Origin: Desulfobacterales bacterium
Lineage (GTDB): Bacteria; Desulfobacterota; Desulfobacteria; Desulfobacterales; C00003060
Assembly (NCBI GenBank): GCA_013375375.1
Contig: JABXJX010000012.1
Location: 1-33,965 of the forward strand
DNA: 33,965 bases
Direction of reading: 5' to 3'
The notes beneath the pieces were generated by a model. It made no database searches. It was given only the letters and a program-made list of their open reading frames with translations, and was not told the origin of the DNA. Both the position numbers and the translations under genes were made by a program. This document shows, piece by piece, positions 18,908 to 27,123 of the stretch (its first letter is position 1; each line of letters starts with the position of its first letter).

Positions 18908-19005
18908 GCCTCGCTTGTTTGCATGGCCTGAACGAATATCAAAGGAATTTGTGCCCTTCAGTATGATTTTTACTCACCTGCTCGGCAAGGAAAATCTCCG
19001 AACTA

Positions 19006-19281
19006 CTATCCAAACTTATAGTGCTTTTTTACACCGTTTCGTATTTTCCAGGTACATGACATGCCCGCAGGAAACGTCACAAGATCTCCCTTGCCCATTT
19101 CTATTGGCTTCCCGCCATCGGGAGTCACTACTACATCTCCTTCTAAGAAATAGCAGGTCTCCTGATCATCATAAGTCCAGGGGAACTCTGATTCCTCTTT
19201 GGTCCAAATCGGCCAATCTGATACGCCTAATTTTTTCAGACGCTCCTCATCTGGATTTTGTTCCATTTTGATTTGACTCAT
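19006..19281 (-). CDS. Small cupin-domain protein (DUF861-like)
   Basis: A 91-residue single cupin similar to the DUF861/EutQ-like group: SDWPIWTKEESEFPWTYDD, then CYFLEGDVVVTPDGGKPIEMGKGDLVTFPAGMSCTWKI. Only some of the metal-ligand positions of classical cupins are present (Glu in FLEGD, few histidines), so metal binding is uncertain. ATG 19281 has GGAG 5 bases upstream, which settles the start. Preceded by a good promoter about 130 bases away. Confidence 0.85.
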   Translation of the reverse strand: MSQIKMEQNPDEERLKKLGVSDWPIWTKEESEFPWTYDDQETCYFLEGDVVVTPDGGKPIEMGKGDLVTFPAGMSCTWKIRNGVKKHYKFG

Positions 19282-19390
19282 TTTTTCTCCATTAACAATC
19301 AAATGGCAATGTGGAATTTTAACGATATCGAGATCAGTTGCAAAAATTCCCGCCGACTTCATCGACAATTTTGTAGAATAGCACCCGAGA

Positions 19391-19412
19391 TGTGTATTCA
19401 GTGTATTCAGTA
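19391..19412 (-). repeat. Tandem 9-bp repeat at cupin transcription start
   Basis: On the minus strand ACTGAATAC occurs twice in tandem directly after the -10 box, covering the expected transcript start. It has the form of a regulator site (two direct half-sites) but no regulator is known. Confidence 0.4.
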
Positions 19413-19415
19413 CGC

Positions 19416-19443
19416 ATTATATGCCTGGTGTTTCCTCCGTCAA
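19416..19443 (-). promoter_or_regulatory. Sigma-70-type promoter of cupin gene
   Basis: On the minus strand TTGACG (19438-19443), 16 bases, then a consensus TATAAT (19416-19421). Confidence 0.6.
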
Positions 19444-19655
19444 GGGGAAAAGAACCTTTTGTAAAAGAATATTCCTGACCTACAATCAGGGTATGGGGGA
19501 GACGCATACCTTGGCTCTGAAGAGGCCTATTTTCCTTGGAGGGGTATATCCTTTAAAGAAGGCTATACTAATATGTAGATAGCAGGCGCTGGGAACTTAT
19601 GGGATATGGAAATAGTTGGGGAAATAAGTTTTTTCATGCATAATGCTACATAGAG

Positions 19656-19700
19656 CTTCAATTAAGCTTTCAAACCTTTTAGGTGGAAGTGGGGCCTTGA
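19656..19700 (-). pseudogene. Fragment of a uroporphyrinogen-III synthase (hemD-like) gene
   Basis: These 45 bases match 25722-25766 of the intact cobA/hemD gene at 39 of 45 positions, in the same orientation. In the hemD frame they read IKAPLPPKRFESLIE against FKVLLPPERFESLIE. A weaker trace (TCTACT...GAAT resembling the SSTVRN codons) extends to about 19730. Most changes are at or compatible with codon third positions, so it looks like a decayed copy or paralogue remnant rather than chance. Confidence 0.65.
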
Positions 19701-19901
19701 TTCAGGATTCCCATAGTAGATTTTTTGGGGGCTACACACCCTCCAGCCCATTAAATGCAACTTTCTATTTGCTTCGCGCAGGTTCATGTAAGGAGTGACT
19801 GACACGATATGGGTCAAGCTCCTGACAAATCCAGGGATGTTGCCTGGAGCTACCCCTTTTCTTTCTAATCGCTGTGTTAAAATTTCTGTAAGCTGGTTCA
19901 A
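19662..19901 (-). CDS. Chimeric small hypothetical ORF (79 residues)
   Basis: TTG start at 19901 with no clear ribosome site; no in-frame ATG upstream before a stop. Residues 1-52 (…NIPGFVRSLTHIVSV…MNLREANRKLHLMGW) resemble a small conserved Desulfobacterota protein that, from memory, normally continues with an acidic DFELDYHTLQ-type segment. Here, after GW, the frame reads through unrelated bases and then out of frame into the hemD-like fragment, which also supplies its stop. It is therefore likely a truncated gene fused to debris. Whether it is expressed is unknown. Confidence 0.45.
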   Translation of the reverse strand: MNQLTEILTQRLERKGVAPGNIPGFVRSLTHIVSVTPYMNLREANRKLHLMGWRVCSPQKIYYGNPESRPHFHLKGLKA

Positions 19902-19993
19902 CCTATCGCCTGTTCTTTCCTCTGAGATATTTCAATCGAATATCTCTTGTCGTTAAGCATGGCTTCTCACGCGTTGTTATAGCACAACAAGGC

Positions 19994-20440
19994 TCAGAAG
20001 AAATTGTTCTGTTCCGGTGCTATCTTGACGGCATTCTCGCCTGTGAATACAAGACGAATCGGCAGGCCCTTAAGGAGGTAGAGTCTATTTTGAAACGTAT
20101 CTTGACCAAAAGGATAAATGTTCTTCAGGCTGGTGGTATTGATGAAAACCCTTACAGCCGCATTACAATTCTCTCTTAGGAGATTGAGGAGCTCGCATGC
20201 CGAGGTGCCGTCGAAATCGCCTATTAGCTTTAGGTGCAGGCTGTCGCTGTTTCGGTGAACGGAGATTCTAAAATTCGATGCCATGACGATACCGCCTTTC
20301 TTCCCTATGGTTAAAGCCTCAATAGTAGCCTTGCCGCTTGATGCCGTTGTGAGTTGGTACACCTCCTCCTTAAAAGCAGAGGCAATCACTATAAGGATGT
20401 TGGGGTTGTCATCCGCAACCAATTTTTTGTACTTCGTCAT
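19994..20440 (-). CDS. Truncated receiver fused to a STAS-like domain protein
   Basis: 148 residues from ATG 20440 (AAGG upstream). Residues 1-45 are the first half of a receiver domain (KKLVADDNPNILIVIASAF...TTASSGKATIEAL) with the acidic pair Asp10-Asp11, but the phospho-Asp strand and everything after it are absent. From Met53 (ATG 20284, GGCGG upstream) the protein looks complete on its own: SLHLKLIGDFDGTSACELLNLL, VFINTTSLKNIYPFG, LVFTGENAVKIAPE, a short STAS/anti-sigma-antagonist-like fold. A separate 96-residue start at 20284 is therefore a serious alternative. It follows two receiver genes and overlaps the nearest by 32 bases. Confidence 0.65.
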   Translation of the reverse strand: MTKYKKLVADDNPNILIVIASAFKEEVYQLTTASSGKATIEALTIGKKGGIVMASNFRISVHRNSDSLHLKLIGDFDGTSACELLNLLRENCNAAVRVFINTTSLKNIYPFGQDTFQNRLYLLKGLPIRLVFTGENAVKIAPEQNNFF

Positions 20441-20843
20441 TGCCTTGCCTTCCGATTTTCTTCATACGCTTCTCTTTCAGCAATGACACGTTGCTCTCCA
20501 ATGCCATATTAATCTTTATCTTTAACTCGGTTAAATCCGCACTCTTGACTACGTAATGATCGGCAGCAATGGACCTCAGATCGGATTTAAAAGAAGAATA
20601 CGCCGTGCACAAGACGACCGGTTTGTTATAATAAGTGTTTCGGATATCCTGCAGGATGTCGAGCCCGTCGTATTCGCCCATTCTAATGTCTAATACGATG
20701 AGATCCGGCCTGTGTTGTCCAATCAACTCCATAAGCCCTGCAGCATCGCATGTGGTGATGACCTCATATCCTTCGCTGCTGAGCTCTGCAGAATAGAGCT
20801 CGCAGAGAACATCTTCATCGTCGACAATCAGGATTTTTTCCAT
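20409..20843 (-). CDS. Stand-alone response regulator receiver protein (1)
   Basis: A 144-residue single receiver domain, start ATG 20843 with AGG 8 bases upstream. Asp8-Asp9 acidic pocket, phospho-Asp52 in IVLDIRM, Thr in LCTAYSS and Lys in YVVKSADL are all present, so phosphorylation is plausible. A basic C-terminal tail (KEKRMKKIGRQG) replaces an output domain. Likely acts by protein contacts in a phosphorelay. Same subfamily as the receiver at 20877, sharing the VVKSADL-type end. Confidence 0.88.
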   Translation of the reverse strand: MEKILIVDDEDVLCELYSAELSSEGYEVITTCDAAGLMELIGQHRPDLIVLDIRMGEYDGLDILQDIRNTYYNKPVVLCTAYSSFKSDLRSIAADHYVVKSADLTELKIKINMALESNVSLLKEKRMKKIGRQGNDEVQKIGCG

Positions 20844-20876
20844 GGTCTTACCTGCATGAGATCTTGCCAAGTATGG

Positions 20877-21299
20877 TCAAAACGCATGAGCCGCACGACG
20901 TCCCGGATAAGGTGTCCATGCTTCCATTGGCGCTTCAAGGGCCTTTTGCTGCCCAAGGACATGGGCTATTTCCTGTTTGAGTGGGTCAAGATCACTACTT
21001 TTGATGACATAGCCGTCTGCGTGAGACAGGCGGGGATCATTCATGAAGCTGTCATAAGCGGTCACGATAATGACGGGCAGATGGGGATATTGCTTCTTGA
21101 TATCTCCTAAGATCCCGAATCCCTCAGGGCCCTCCAGATAGAGATCCAAAAGAACCAGGTCCGGTCGGGAAAATAGAAGGTGTTCCCTGACCGATTCGGC
21201 ATTACCGACACTGTGGACCTGGTACCCCTCTATGGCCAGTTCTTCGGAAAGGAGTTCCCGAATGCATGGCTGGTCATCTACAACTAAAATGTTCGGCAT
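20877..21299 (-). CDS. Stand-alone response regulator receiver protein (2)
   Basis: A 140-residue receiver with start ATG 21299 and a strong AGGAGG 8 bases upstream. Asp8-Asp9, phospho-Asp52 (VLLDLYLEGPEG), Thr in IVTAYDS and Lys in YVIKSSDL are intact. The C-terminus is a short linker with no output domain. It heads a three-gene receiver run with 20409 and 19994. Confidence 0.9.
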   Translation of the reverse strand: MPNILVVDDQPCIRELLSEELAIEGYQVHSVGNAESVREHLLFSRPDLVLLDLYLEGPEGFGILGDIKKQYPHLPVIIVTAYDSFMNDPRLSHADGYVIKSSDLDPLKQEIAHVLGQQKALEAPMEAWTPYPGRRAAHAF

Positions 21300-21335
21300 G
21301 GTGCGTTCCTCCTGTGTATCTTTGCTCAAGACCAG

Positions 21336-21365
21336 ATTTTAAATGTACCAAACTCTTCTTTACAA
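21336..21365 (-). promoter_or_regulatory. Possible promoter of receiver gene cluster
   Basis: On the minus strand TTGTAA (21360-21365), 18 bases, then TAAAAT (21336-21341); leader of about 30 bases to the ribosome site of the gene at 21299. Confidence 0.35.
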
Positions 21366-21416
21366 CATTTCCGATTTCTATGCTGGGCTGTCAGGCATAA
21401 TTTGCCCTTTGCCCGC

Positions 21417-21447
21417 GTGTAAGCCCCTTTAGAGCAGGGGCTTACAC
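21417..21447. repeat. Perfect 12-bp hairpin
   Basis: GTGTAAGCCCCT (21417-21428) pairs exactly with AGGGGCTTACAC (21436-21447) around a 7-base loop. No T-run follows on either strand, so an intrinsic terminator is not clear. It lies between the receiver cluster and the small cysteine-rich gene. Confidence 0.6.
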
Positions 21448-21584
21448 ACATCCACTTGTGCCGTCCAGACTGCAGGCAATTGCTTAAGGGGCCCTTTTGG
21501 GTCGAGAAACTTGCCAAGTTACAGCCTTTTAACGAACACAGCAGAAAAAGGACTTGTGCTGGTTTTTACTCATCTTCATGAGCC

Positions 21585-21749
21585 TCACTCCAATTCATAA
21601 GGAGGGTCATTTGGCTTTTCCAGGCAGTACGCACGCCAGGCACAACCCATCTGGTCACAATGGTCCTCCCTGCGAAAACAGTCAATGTTACCTTCAGCTC
21701 GCTGAATGCTTCTGATAAGCTCCGTCACATCCAAGAAATTCTTTTTCAA
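21585..21749 (-). CDS. Small cysteine-rich conserved protein (54 residues)
   Basis: TTG start at 21749 with GAAGG 9 bases upstream; GTG 21728 is an alternative. The sequence has DVTELIRSIQRAEGNIDCF, then HCDQMGCAWRAYCLEKP. Four cysteines (24, 31, 36, 42) could bind a metal or form disulfides. The RAEGNxDCF...CDQ..C.WR.YCL pattern recalls short conserved proteins common in Desulfobacterota, of unknown function. Its placement beside receiver genes is suggestive only. Confidence 0.6.
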   Translation of the reverse strand: MKKNFLDVTELIRSIQRAEGNIDCFRREDHCDQMGCAWRAYCLEKPNDPPYELE

Positions 21750-22070
21750 ACCGTTATGCCTTCAGTTCATCCTTTGCCGTGTTTTTGGTTGCCGTATGTT
21801 TCGCGCAGGGGTCCGAAGCCTGCGCCGCCTTATTTGGTTGACACGTACCGAGAAGGTTTTTTAAACCATAATGGAATGAGAGTTTCTTCTTTGTTGTTTT
21901 AGTGAAGGATTGTCTTCTTAGACGTTGGTATTTTCCCAATTATCTACATTTTATCGGTTTGTCCATAGAGGGAGGGATTCATTTTGATGAGGGGAATTCC
22001 TAATAGGTGGGAATTTATCCCGGGACTATGTGGGGGAAATGACCAACCAAGCGAGTTGTTGTTGTGGGGC
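21750..22070. other. Non-coding gap of about 320 bp
   Basis: No convincing gene, hairpin or promoter was seen. A 61-codon minus-strand frame (21754-21939) has a TTG start and no ribosome site. The region lies downstream of the NarL-like regulator and may hold its 3' end and leader of the small gene. Confidence 0.4.
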
Positions 22071-22748
22071 TTAATCCTTCCAGAGGTCCACGTCGATCAG
22101 GCCGAGTCTTGCGGCATAACGAACCAATTCAATGGTACTGTGAAGGCCGAGCTTTTTCATAATGTTGGCACGGTGGTTCTCAACGGTTTTGGGGCTGATG
22201 AAAAGCTTTTCAGCGGTCTCTTTGGTAGAAAGCCCTTCGGCCAGCAGGCGCAGGACCTCTTGCTCTCGGGGGGTCAGGGACCCGTACTCAGTATCCGTGA
22301 TCTTTACCTCTTTTTCTGGGAATTTCATAAGCTTTTCCACCACCTTATGGGAGATGGAGCTGTCCAGGAAATACTCGCCTTTTGATACGGTCTCCAGTCC
22401 ATGCACAAGCCTGTCAGCGGCCGATTCCTTAACCACATACCCCGTGGCCCCCGCCTGAAATGCCTCTGTGATATAATTAATTTTGGAGTGCATGCTGACA
22501 ACCATGACACGTGTATCCGACAAGCAGTCACGTATTTGGCGGGTCAGTTGAATGCCGCTTTGATCCGGCAAGGATATGTCCACCACTACCAGATCGGGCT
22601 TGAGTTTCCTGGCCACCTGGAGTCCTGCGCGCCCGGTTCCTGCCTCCCCGACTACCTCAAATCTTGCGTTGCGTTCTATAATAGCCTTGAGACCTTCCCT
22701 GAAAAGGGGGTGGTCGTCAACAATCAATATGGTTTTCTTATTTGCCAT
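22071..22748 (-). CDS. NarL/LuxR-family response regulator
   Basis: 225 residues: receiver domain (Asp11-Asp12, phospho-Asp57 in VVVDISLPD, Lys in YVVKESA) and a C-terminal LuxR helix-turn-helix (LTPREQEVLRLLAEGLSTKETAEKLFISPKTVENHRANIMKKL). Activated by phosphorylation to bind DNA as a dimer. It overlaps the 3' end of the kinase gene at 22738 by 11 bases, so this pair is one translationally coupled unit. Target genes are not visible. Confidence 0.96.
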   Translation of the reverse strand: MANKKTILIVDDHPLFREGLKAIIERNARFEVVGEAGTGRAGLQVARKLKPDLVVVDISLPDQSGIQLTRQIRDCLSDTRVMVVSMHSKINYITEAFQAGATGYVVKESAADRLVHGLETVSKGEYFLDSSISHKVVEKLMKFPEKEVKITDTEYGSLTPREQEVLRLLAEGLSTKETAEKLFISPKTVENHRANIMKKLGLHSTIELVRYAARLGLIDVDLWKD

Positions 22749-25356
22749 TATCTTTTCCCTTACAAGGAACCTCTATGAAAATTTTCGTACCACCCTTTGG
22801 ATGGGATTCGAGTCTCATTTTCCCTTGGAGCAGAGCGACCCTCTCCTCCATTGTCCGAAGTCCCATACGTCTTTCATTAGCTGCTGAGACCAGCCGGTTT
22901 TCCACGTCAAAACCCTTCCCATTATCTTCGATGCGAAGAATAATGTTCGGAAAAGAGGCGACTAACCGGATAGTCACCTGGTCGGTATCAGCATGTTTCT
23001 TGACGTTGTTGAGGCCTTCTTGAATCAGGCGATACAAGGTGATCTTGGTATCAAAACCGACTTTTGAGTCATCTATGCCGCCGGCAAAGAAGTCGACCTT
23101 CACTCCACTCTTGGCGGAGAACTCTTCGCAATGCTGTTGGACAGTCCGGGCCAGTCCCAGCTGATTCAGACCGGCGGGACGTAAGTCATAGGCCAGATCC
23201 CGGACAGCCATGATGGTCCCCTGAATCATTTTGGATAGTTCGGGAACCCTTAGCCTTGTCTCAGGAGGTGCTTCTGAGTGATTGTCAAAAAGGGTATCAA
23301 GGCCGATTTTCAGGGTGGAAAGGTCTTGCGCTACATAGTCATGCAGGTCACGAGAAAGCCGTTGCCTCTCGCTTTCTTGCGTCTTTATAAGTTGTTGGCT
23401 GAGGCTACGAATGTGTTCCTCGGCCCGCTTACGCTCGGTGATGTCTCGAACAGTAGATAACACGGTGGGCTGTCCGTTGAAATTGAACAAATGAGAACTA
23501 ATCTCAACGGGAATCCTTCTGCCCTCTTTGGATACTTGCACTTTTTCGAAGATAACATGTTTTTCGGCAAACAACTTCTTCTGTCGCGCGGGAATATTGG
23601 GCACATCTTCCGGGGCGCTGATGTCTAAAGGTGATAACTTCAACAATTCTTCTCTTGTGTAGCCATATTTTTGACACGCAACATTATTTACTTCGATGAA
23701 TTTGCCAGGCATACCCTCTGGTGTGGGGTGATAAACGAACATAGCGTCGCTGCTACTGTTAAACAACATGCGATATTTTTCTTCGCTTTCCTGCAGTGCC
23801 TCTTCCGCTTGTTTGCGTTTGGTGATGTCAATGGACACTCCCAAGGCTGTGGTCATATTGCCTTCGGCATCGAAGATGGGGTACGTGGTGAAAAGGGCCG
23901 GAAATCGCTCACCGGACTTTCGAACCAGAGTCGATTCCCCGGTGAACCCTGCTTTTCTTTGGCGCATTGCCTCAATAACCTCGGGAAACCTGGCCACATC
24001 TTCCGGCAGATGGAGCATGGCGACTGGTTTACCGATGACCTCCTCACGATCATAGCCAAACATACGCTCTGCGCCTGGGCTGAACTCCAGTATATGGGCC
24101 TCTTTACCGGCGAGATCCGTCATGATGAAGGAGACATTATCCGCTGCCTCAAAGATCGTCCGGAGACGCACTTCGCTCTCCCGAAGCGCCTCCTCCGAAC
24201 TCTTACGTTCATTCTCCAGTTCTATGCTGTGCAGGGCGAAGGCAATATCCCCGGCAACCTCCTCGAACAAAGCCAGCTCTGCCTTGTCTGCAACGAGATT
24301 TCTGGGGATGGAGACACTCAACAGGCCTTGGGCCTTTCCGCCGTATTCCAACCGCATGGTCATCGCCCCTCTGCCAGAGTACTTCTTGGCTAAAGGACAG
24401 TCAGTGCATGTGGAAAATGGGTCACCAGTTACAACAACCTCTGTTTTTCGAAGTGCCTTCTGTGCGCAATCGGTCAACTCACCACGCTTAAGCCGCTCGA
24501 GCATTGGCAGGAAATCCTTGCCCAAACCGGCTTCAGCGGCTGTCACAAGCCCCCCGGACTCATCTATGAGAGAGATCCAGGCGTTATAATAACCGCGAGT
24601 CTCAATGAGGCTGTCGCAGACGCCTTTAAGCAGTCTGTTGCGATCCTTTTCTTTGCTAATGAGTTGGTTGACCTTGCGGATAGCCCGAAGCACTGCGTTC
24701 AGGTGTTTGATCTGCGTGTCTGCCTGCCTTTTCTTGGTAATATCGCGGAATACAAGCACGACACCGGTAATTTCACCCTGGGCATTTCGAATGGGAGCGC
24801 CGCTATCGTCAATAGAGCACTCTTTACCCTCCTTTGAGATCAAGAGCGTATGGTTGGCAAGACCGACAATAATTCCTTCGCGCAGAACTTTCTCGACCGG
24901 GCTTTCCACCGCCTCGCGGGTATGCTCATTAACGATATGAAATACCTCATCGAGCGGATGTCCTTTTGCCTCCCAGAGCTTCCAGCCGGTCAGCTTTTCC
25001 GCCACAGGATTCATGCGGAGGACCCGGCCTTCGGTGTCGGTTGCTATGACCGCATCGCCGATGGAGTTGAGTGTTGTGGTAAGGTTTTCTTCGCTTTCCC
25101 TGAGCGCCTTCTCGGCCCGCTTGCGAGAAATGAATTGAGCATACACTCCAAAGATAATAATGATAAGGCACGCGCCTAATGAACGCATCCAGATTTCATG
25201 CAGACCTGGGGTGAACATTTGCGTGATAAGACCACCCTGATGGAATATGAAAGCATGTATCGCAGATTCAAGAATCCAAAAGAGCGCCCCGAGCCCAATT
25301 CCGATCCATACTAATTTATTGGTTATCCTTGTAGGATTTGTACTTTTGCCCTTCAT
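22738..25356 (-). CDS. NarX-like sensor histidine kinase with PAS and GAF domains
   Basis: 872 residues with a very strong GGAGGAGG site. Two N-terminal membrane helices (about 15-35 and 58-78) flank a short external loop. Then PAS (about 88-205), GAF (about 235-385) with cysteines in STCTDCPLAKKY, two further PAS domains (about 400-520 and 530-650, each ending in an ITKRKQAEE/ITERKRAEE linker), and a HisKA_3 box with the phospho-His in SRDLHDYVAQDLSTLKIGL. A HATPase (EGLNNVKKHA, EDNGKGFD, MGLRTMEERV) ends the protein. The CxxC-containing GAF may sense redox or a metal, by inference. Cognate regulator is the overlapping NarL-like gene. Confidence 0.95.
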   Translation of the reverse strand: MKGKSTNPTRITNKLVWIGIGLGALFWILESAIHAFIFHQGGLITQMFTPGLHEIWMRSLGACLIIIIFGVYAQFISRKRAEKALRESEENLTTTLNSIGDAVIATDTEGRVLRMNPVAEKLTGWKLWEAKGHPLDEVFHIVNEHTREAVESPVEKVLREGIIVGLANHTLLISKEGKECSIDDSGAPIRNAQGEITGVVLVFRDITKKRQADTQIKHLNAVLRAIRKVNQLISKEKDRNRLLKGVCDSLIETRGYYNAWISLIDESGGLVTAAEAGLGKDFLPMLERLKRGELTDCAQKALRKTEVVVTGDPFSTCTDCPLAKKYSGRGAMTMRLEYGGKAQGLLSVSIPRNLVADKAELALFEEVAGDIAFALHSIELENERKSSEEALRESEVRLRTIFEAADNVSFIMTDLAGKEAHILEFSPGAERMFGYDREEVIGKPVAMLHLPEDVARFPEVIEAMRQRKAGFTGESTLVRKSGERFPALFTTYPIFDAEGNMTTALGVSIDITKRKQAEEALQESEEKYRMLFNSSSDAMFVYHPTPEGMPGKFIEVNNVACQKYGYTREELLKLSPLDISAPEDVPNIPARQKKLFAEKHVIFEKVQVSKEGRRIPVEISSHLFNFNGQPTVLSTVRDITERKRAEEHIRSLSQQLIKTQESERQRLSRDLHDYVAQDLSTLKIGLDTLFDNHSEAPPETRLRVPELSKMIQGTIMAVRDLAYDLRPAGLNQLGLARTVQQHCEEFSAKSGVKVDFFAGGIDDSKVGFDTKITLYRLIQEGLNNVKKHADTDQVTIRLVASFPNIILRIEDNGKGFDVENRLVSAANERRMGLRTMEERVALLQGKMRLESHPKGGTKIFIEVPCKGKDNGK

Positions 25357-25466
25357 TTTGCACCTCCTCCGTAGGAGAACGCATGCTCCTGGAGAATACT
25401 AACGATCACTATTAGTTCCTTAGTTCTAAGATTCGTGTTTTTTCTGGCAGAAAATTTTAAAAGATA

Positions 25467-25549
25467 ATCACGAAAGCACGAAAGATTGAAAGCACGAAAT
25501 AAAAAAACATTCAGTTTTTCGTGTTTTCGTACTTTCGTGTTTTCGTGAT
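25467..25549. repeat. CACGAAA-type inverted repeat, locus A
   Basis: Left arm 25467-25484 (ATCACGAAAGCACGAAAG) pairs with right arm 25532-25549 (reverse ATCACGAAAACACGAAAG), 17 of 18 identical, with further CACGAAA units between. The same two arm types recur at 29286-29487. No ORF lies inside. Confidence 0.7.
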
Positions 25550-25587
25550 AGTTTTTGTTTTTTTGTTCCGGTTTATCCGGGTTAGGA

Positions 25588-27123
25588 TTATAGACCATAA
25601 TGTTGCAGGATGGCTTCGCACAACCCGTCGATGGTGTAGTCTTTGGCTGTGATATCGACCTTGAACCCCAATTCTCTTGCAGTGTCGGCCGTGATCGGGC
25701 CGATGCTTGCGACAGTAACCCCTTCAATTAGGCTTTCAAACCTTTCAGGCGGAAGAAGGACCTTGAAATTTCTAACTGTGGATGAGCTGGTAAAGGTCAG
25801 GAGGTCAATGGAGCCTTCTTCCAGGCGTTTGATCAGCGCGTCAACATTTTCGAGTGCCTGTTCGGTCTCATAAGCTGCGATTTCATCAACAACAGCACCC
25901 ATTTTCCGGAGTTCTTCGGGCAAGATGGGCCGAGCCTCTTTGGCGCGAGGCAGCAGCACTTTTTTATTCTTCATGGGTTCTTTTGTAAAGGCCTCCACGA
26001 TCGACTCCGCTTGATAGGTCTCAGGGATAATATCGCTCTTGAAGCCGAAATCGCGCAATCGTTTTGCTGTTGCCGGCCCGATGGCCGCAGTACGTATATC
26101 CTTGAGCGCGCGGACATCCTTGTCTTTTTTATAGAGACGCTCAAAGAAAAAAGAAACCCCGTTTACACTTGTGAAAACAAGCCAGTCGTATGTGCCAAGG
26201 TTATCTATGGCCGAATCAAGGGGGCTCCAGTCTTTTGGAGGAACAACCTTTATTGTGGGACATTCCAGACACTCGGCTCCCAGGCCTGCAAGCCGGTCTA
26301 CTAGTTCGCTTGCCTGTGCCCGTGCCCTGGTGACTACCACGGTTTTTCCCAAGAGAGGCATCTTTTCAAACCAGTTGAGTCTTTCCCGGAGTTTGACTAC
26401 TTTACCCACGACGATGATGGCAGGGGGTTTCAGGCCGGCTGCTTGCACATCTTCCACGATGGTGTCAAGGGTTCCCACCACTGTTTTTTGTTGAGGTGTT
26501 GTGCCCCAGCGCACCAGGGCCACCGGGGTTTTCGGGTCGCGGCCGGCTGCTATCAAGTTTTCCGTGATGCCGGGCAGGTTCTTGACCCCCATCAAAAAGA
26601 CCAGGGTGCCCACGCCGGTAGCAAGCTTTGACCAGTCAATCGATGAATCCTCTTTTGTCGGATCTTCATGGCCTGTTACAAACGCCACACTGCTGGTGTA
26701 TTTACGATGGGTAAGGGGTATGCCGGCATATGCCGGTGCAGCCACAGGCGATGTTACACCAGGGACAATCTCAAAGGGGATTCCCTCTGCAGCGAGCACT
26801 TCAGCTTCTTCACCGCCCCTGCCGAAAATAAATGGATCCCCCCCTTTAAGGCGCGCAACAGCGTGGCCTTCTTTGGCCTTTGCCGCGATCAGTTCGTTGA
26901 TCTTTTTTTGAGGAAGGGTGTGATCCCCTCCCTTCTTGCCGACATAAATGATTTCAGCGCCTTCTCGTACATATTGCAGGAGTTTGGGGACTGCCAGGAA
27001 ATCATAGATCACCACGTCCGCCTGTTTCAAACACTCGACGGCTCTTACGGTTATGAGATCCGGGTCGCCCGGCCCGGCACCAATTAGATATACTTTTCCT
27101 TTATTCACTTTGATGGCCGCCAT
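25588..27123 (-). CDS. cobA: Fused uroporphyrinogen-III C-methyltransferase / uroporphyrinogen-III synthase (CobA-HemD)
   Basis: 511 residues. The N-terminal half is the SAM-dependent methyltransferase making precorrin-2: VYLIGAGPGDPDLIT (residues 11-25), RLKGGDPFIFGRGGEEAE, VPGVTSPVAAPAYAGIPLTHR and VALVRWGTTPQQ. The C-terminal half (from about 255) is HemD, cyclising hydroxymethylbilane to uroporphyrinogen III (VFTSVNGVSFFFERL, SIGPITADTARELG). The ATG follows the hemC stop directly (TAAATG). This fusion next to hemC is common in Desulfobacterota. A hemD-like fragment lies at 19656. Confidence 0.96.
   Translation of the reverse strand: MAAIKVNKGKVYLIGAGPGDPDLITVRAVECLKQADVVIYDFLAVPKLLQYVREGAEIIYVGKKGGDHTLPQKKINELIAAKAKEGHAVARLKGGDPFIFGRGGEEAEVLAAEGIPFEIVPGVTSPVAAPAYAGIPLTHRKYTSSVAFVTGHEDPTKEDSSIDWSKLATGVGTLVFLMGVKNLPGITENLIAAGRDPKTPVALVRWGTTPQQKTVVGTLDTIVEDVQAAGLKPPAIIVVGKVVKLRERLNWFEKMPLLGKTVVVTRARAQASELVDRLAGLGAECLECPTIKVVPPKDWSPLDSAIDNLGTYDWLVFTSVNGVSFFFERLYKKDKDVRALKDIRTAAIGPATAKRLRDFGFKSDIIPETYQAESIVEAFTKEPMKNKKVLLPRAKEARPILPEELRKMGAVVDEIAAYETEQALENVDALIKRLEEGSIDLLTFTSSSTVRNFKVLLPPERFESLIEGVTVASIGPITADTARELGFKVDITAKDYTIDGLCEAILQHYGL

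Follow-up and report, generated by a model that had tools for sequence, protein, structure and literature searches.

A likely hemD recombination scar joined to a truncated small ORF in a Desulfobacterales genome

Results

A displaced piece of hemD lies downstream of a signalling gene cluster

In the window, a stretch of 33,965 nucleotides of a Desulfobacterales bacterium (contig JABXJX010000012.1) analysed here at its full length, we identified a short duplicate from the 3′ end of hemD in the haem/cobalamin gene cobA/hemD, displaced downstream of a histidine kinase and response-regulator cluster and joined to a broken small open reading frame (ORF). Displaced hemD tails lie at the matching place in two genomes and have decayed differently in each, and the small ORF of the window is truncated at GW. 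The segment is likely a non-functional recombination scar, in which an old hemD tail was pushed downstream of the cluster and then decayed. As to the route, the chances are about even that the cluster and a hemD tail were inserted with hemD as anchor, displacing the resident tail. The feature reflects ordinary genome decay and is no new type of element, and a literature search returned nothing specific. Coordinates of the features are given in Table 1.

Table 1 Features of the displaced hemD tail and its surroundings in the window
Feature	Position	Strand	Remarks
Block collinear with the sequence behind the displaced hemD tail of G007	19440-19650	-	alignment score 49; control maximum 38
Putative integrase N-terminus remnant (relative of the EEAYLSW stretch of G007)	19517-19539	+	antisense to hemD; 20/23 to the G007 remnant
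Second remnant of the displaced hemD copy (last codons and stop)	19634-19650	-	15/17 to the displaced tail of G007
Displaced piece of the hemD 3′ end	19656-19700	-	about codons 453-467 of the 511-codon cobA/hemD
Junction filler between small ORF and hemD fragment	19701-19742	-	42 bp; similarity to relatives stops at 19741-19742
Conserved part of the small ORF (53 codons), truncated small-protein family member	19743-19901	-	68% identity to the G016 and G005 copies (E = 4e-22 and 1.5e-20)
STAS-like ORF upstream of the small ORF	19994-20284	-	label from sequence pattern; start probably MASNF at 20284
Histidine kinase and response-regulator cluster between intact hemD and displaced tail	20409-25356	-	Pfam matches; same order in G007
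Intact cobA/hemD, source type of the fragment	25588-27123	-	TP_methylase 2e-57; HEM4 4e-73

Positions 19656-19700 and 25722-25766, the latter within cobA/hemD, are identical at 39 of 45 positions, ungapped and in the same orientation, over a distance of 6,022 bp; the match described in an earlier note on this DNA (39 of 45, same orientation, 6 kb away) is therefore exact. It received E = 1e-9 in a blastn search of the whole window, the runner-up among the self-matches of 19001-20500 having E = 0.5, and when 19370-20000 was searched against its own genome, the hemD match (E = 2.9e-8) was the sole one apart from the query itself. Read on the minus strand, hemD gives KVLLPPERFESLIE and the fragment gives KAPLPPKRFESLIE. 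The fragment agrees with the hemD of relatives to a similar degree (40/45 in G005, 39/45 in both G017 and G007), 45 bp being too short to discriminate among hemD lineages. A HemD-like match in G010 (C259) was rejected as a fragment of the same hemD, as it is a distant, different sequence with 42% identity at a contig edge.

Local alignment yielded no ungapped extension of the 45-base match, but hemD 3′ sequence is picked up again at 19650-19634, beyond an internal deletion of about 96 bp that separates the two remnants and lies between two GAAG repeats; a repeat of these 4 bp can account for the deletion. The fragment has the make-up of a hemD pseudogene, that is, a significant DNA match in hemD reading order followed by the tail remnant, and it holds no open hemD domain, since its 45 bp are followed by the deletion and a frame change. 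An assembly artefact that joined unrelated pieces could be imagined, given that the assembly is fragmented into 197 contigs, of which the window is one, but the two copies are just 87% identical, too different for confusion, and the arrangement is repeated in an independent genome, which makes an artefact hardly credible.

Truncation and accidental ending of the small ORF

In the small ORF (19662-19901, minus strand, 79 aa, TTG start), the fragment DNA is read as PHFHLKGLKA*, one frame over from hemD, with the TAA inside the fragment, so that the ORF does cross the fragment in another frame and take its stop from it, as had been claimed. Relatives of its first 53 residues were found in 11 of the 60 genomes searched, its own genome counted, the nearest ones belonging to the same genus (68% identity), and follow the pattern LTEIL..RLE.KG..IPGF....N..LH.LGW.DFELDDHTLQL. 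The window copy retains the conserved N-terminal part up to GW (53 residues). After GW, the full copies examined continue into an acidic block, which reads DFELDDHTLQL in several and varies in others; in an alignment of eight sequences, this block is kept in all seven relatives and missing in the window copy only. The question raised in the earlier note, whether homologues continue differently after GW, can thus be answered in the affirmative. At the DNA level, similarity of the small ORF to three relatives ends at 19741-19742. A genus-wide search for the source of the filler at 19701-19742 gave short chance-level matches only, and a candidate resemblance to the sequence behind the STAS-like gene of G020 was discarded, as it scored the same as unrelated segments.

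Because the relatives continue past GW and the window copy breaks exactly there, the small ORF is read, from sequence comparison, as a truncated relic with an accidental tail rather than a full family member, and its fusion to the hemD fragment is a by-product of deletion and decay, not a functional fusion. A functional chimeric protein, its tail co-opted from hemD sequence read in another frame, would fit the open frame of the 79-residue ORF and the dN/dS of 0.17-0.33 that its conserved part shows against relatives. However, this constraint signal is common to the intact copies and is no demonstration of selection after truncation, all full-length relatives aligned conserve the block that the window copy lacks after GW, and the window C-terminus occurs in no other genome examined; a functional chimera is accordingly very improbable. 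A tiny duplicated gene fragment, though real, can produce a false small ORF in annotation.

The small-ORF family is uncharacterised, and a search with Pfam and NCBIfam models matched no family to the window ORF. Members are present in multiple copies in some genomes; they include L002, L003, L004, L005 and L006, each matching at 1501-1659. At least the window, G005 (C23) and G019 (C278) have a copy immediately behind a STAS-like gene.

The STAS-like ORF itself has homologues in many relatives, often with the small ORF or its remnant behind it. Neither the window ORF nor a relative had a Pfam match, the STAS model included, and the label denotes resemblance only. In G014, G005 (C99), G020 (C357) and G017 (C80), just 25-37 bp of the small ORF are left, joined directly to the end of the STAS-like gene, and the stretch behind this gene is, as far as these sequences indicate, deletion-prone in several relatives. 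On the other side of the STAS-like ORF, at 20302-20440, the N-terminal part of a 148-aa ORF resembles a decayed response-regulator start, fused in frame to the STAS-like ORF.

G007 has a displaced hemD tail in the corresponding position

The gene order of G007, which belongs to the same genus, is that of the window: hemC, cobA/hemD, histidine kinase, response regulators and STAS-like gene. A second hemD tail, comprising the last 25 codons and the stop, is located 3.7 kb downstream of intact hemD, where it is fused to a decayed STAS-like gene and followed by an antisense N-terminal piece of an integrase (Phage_int_SAM_4, 3e-7). The window remnant at 19634-19650 aligns with this displaced tail (TGTAGCATTATGCATGA / TGCAGCATTATGCTTGA), the identical positions including the stop, whereas its own intact hemD matches less well.

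Beyond the tail, the flanks of the two genomes could be aligned over about 210 bp. This alignment was compared with 1,546 control segments under three scoring schemes and stood out in all three, although under very lenient gap costs an unrelated window stretch scored nearly as high, and under one stricter scheme in an earlier alignment 3 of 5,046 controls were at or above its score. Regions downstream of intact hemD genes did not score above control. The putative integrase remnant of the window is identified from its DNA match to G007, as the piece is too short for a family match and a translated search gave nothing above background. The genus contains scattered N-terminal pieces of integron-integrase-like recombinases, of which several are visibly broken (L087-L093; G000, C189, 25233-25310).

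Taken together, one displaced hemD tail was probably inherited by the window genome and G007, with different parts lost in each; the two remnants cover mostly different hemD parts, and their common origin rests on the 17-bp tail and about 200 bp of weakly conserved flank. The earlier note had proposed a past duplication or recombination in the region. This proposal is supported, in that the match did not turn out to be an inextensible stretch of an unrelated conserved protein and no homologue examined shared the C-terminus of the 79-residue ORF. To it should be added that the copy is probably older than the window genome: as a hemD tail and a truncated integrase follow the matching cluster in G007, the duplication probably predates the split of the two. 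The scar thereby probably places a hemD recombination earlier than the divergence of two uncultured Desulfobacterales species. The closest named relatives in the public collection are uncultured Desulfobacterales and Deltaproteobacteria from metagenomes.

cobA/hemD is mosaic across the genus

Among the genomes with a readable flank downstream of hemD, the kinase cluster is found behind hemD only in G000, G007 and G010, and the hemD-kinase junction is present in G010 too. The cobA/hemD gene is mosaic across the genus (hemC-cobA/hemD in L044, L046, L047 and L079). The identity between G005 and G010, for example, is 94% over the cobA part but 76-79% over the middle; the hemD 3′ end of G005 is 91% identical to that of G017, and these two genomes have the same genes downstream of hemD. 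Here, it appears that the hemD 3′ end was exchanged jointly with the genes downstream of it. To the left of the scar, the cupin gene has matches in 11 of 22 genomes. The pre-insertion state, an intact hemD directly before the integrase remnant and the left flank of the window, was found in no genome.

At 25412-25590, a dispersed repeat rich in CACGAAA units starts at the hemD stop codon. It has 64 matches at E ≤ 0.001 in its own genome, and matches were present in eight of the nine genomes searched.

Discussion

Recombination anchored in hemD is favoured because cobA/hemD is mosaic and because, in one case, 3′ ends and downstream genes were apparently exchanged together. Under this explanation, the ancestor of the window genome and G007 would have gained a second partial hemD 3′ end, oriented like the first, behind a cluster of kinase, response-regulator, STAS-like and small-ORF genes. 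Incoming DNA with a hemD tail and the signalling cluster would have recombined with the resident hemD, which would have kept the intact incoming 3′ end, while the old tail, followed by the truncated integrase, would have ended up beyond the cluster. Small deletions, in part at short repeats, would later have erased most of this tail and joined the remnant to the broken small ORF.

Two other origins of the copy explain less than an insertion anchored in hemD. A local tandem duplication, in which the segment running from hemD tail to cluster was doubled in place and the second copy decayed down to the hemD tail, would agree with the same orientation, the spacing of about 6 kb and the occurrence in two genomes; remnants of kinase or regulator genes would be expected beyond the tail, but 19006-19633 contains none and has the integrase trace and the cupin gene instead, and such a duplication is therefore unlikely. 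Site-specific integration, by which a tyrosine recombinase would have placed the cluster and a replacement 3′ end at an attachment site within the 3′ end of hemD, with the displaced end as the second site, is rather improbable. The succession of intact hemD, cargo and displaced hemD 3′ end in the same orientation fits it, as does the integrase N-terminus remnant adjoining the displaced tail of G007 and, probably, that of the window. Against it, this remnant, of a type dispersed through the genus, is already truncated and does not lie within the segment bounded by the repeats; no recombinase was found among the ORFs and families examined between intact hemD and the displaced tail; the cargo consists of ordinary signalling genes; and the mosaicism of cobA/hemD points to general homologous exchange. 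For a comparison of attachment cores, displaced hemD tails are available in only two genomes and cover mostly different hemD parts.

Beyond the favoured insertion at this locus, we raise only tentatively that cobA/hemD might be a recurrent crossover anchor in the genus, at which downstream clusters, in this case two-component signalling genes, are swapped or added between species and of which displaced tails are the footprints. If hemD were such a general exchange anchor, scars of this kind would let flank swaps be traced; otherwise, the case is one of routine genome decay.

Comparison with known systems

The intact gene at 25588-27123 is a cobA/hemD fusion (uroporphyrinogen-III methyltransferase/synthase) and contains both domains, unlike the displaced copy, whose 45 bp and few last codons cannot encode a domain. 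Some integrative elements target the 3′ end of a gene, which their insertion restores. The locus resembles them in that intact and displaced hemD ends flank the cargo and an integrase trace adjoins the displaced end, but it differs in having no intact recombinase, in an integrase trace that lies beyond the segment, and in offering no attachment core that could be defined from the two displaced tails. In bacteria, partial gene duplications in the form of pseudogenised gene tails are left by homologous or Campbell-type recombination. Although the present scar is old, is reduced to two short pieces, is apparently common to two species of the genus and could be traced to neither a donor nor an empty site, its arrangement is that of such tails: an intact gene, an inserted segment and then a truncated, decaying copy of the gene end in the same orientation.
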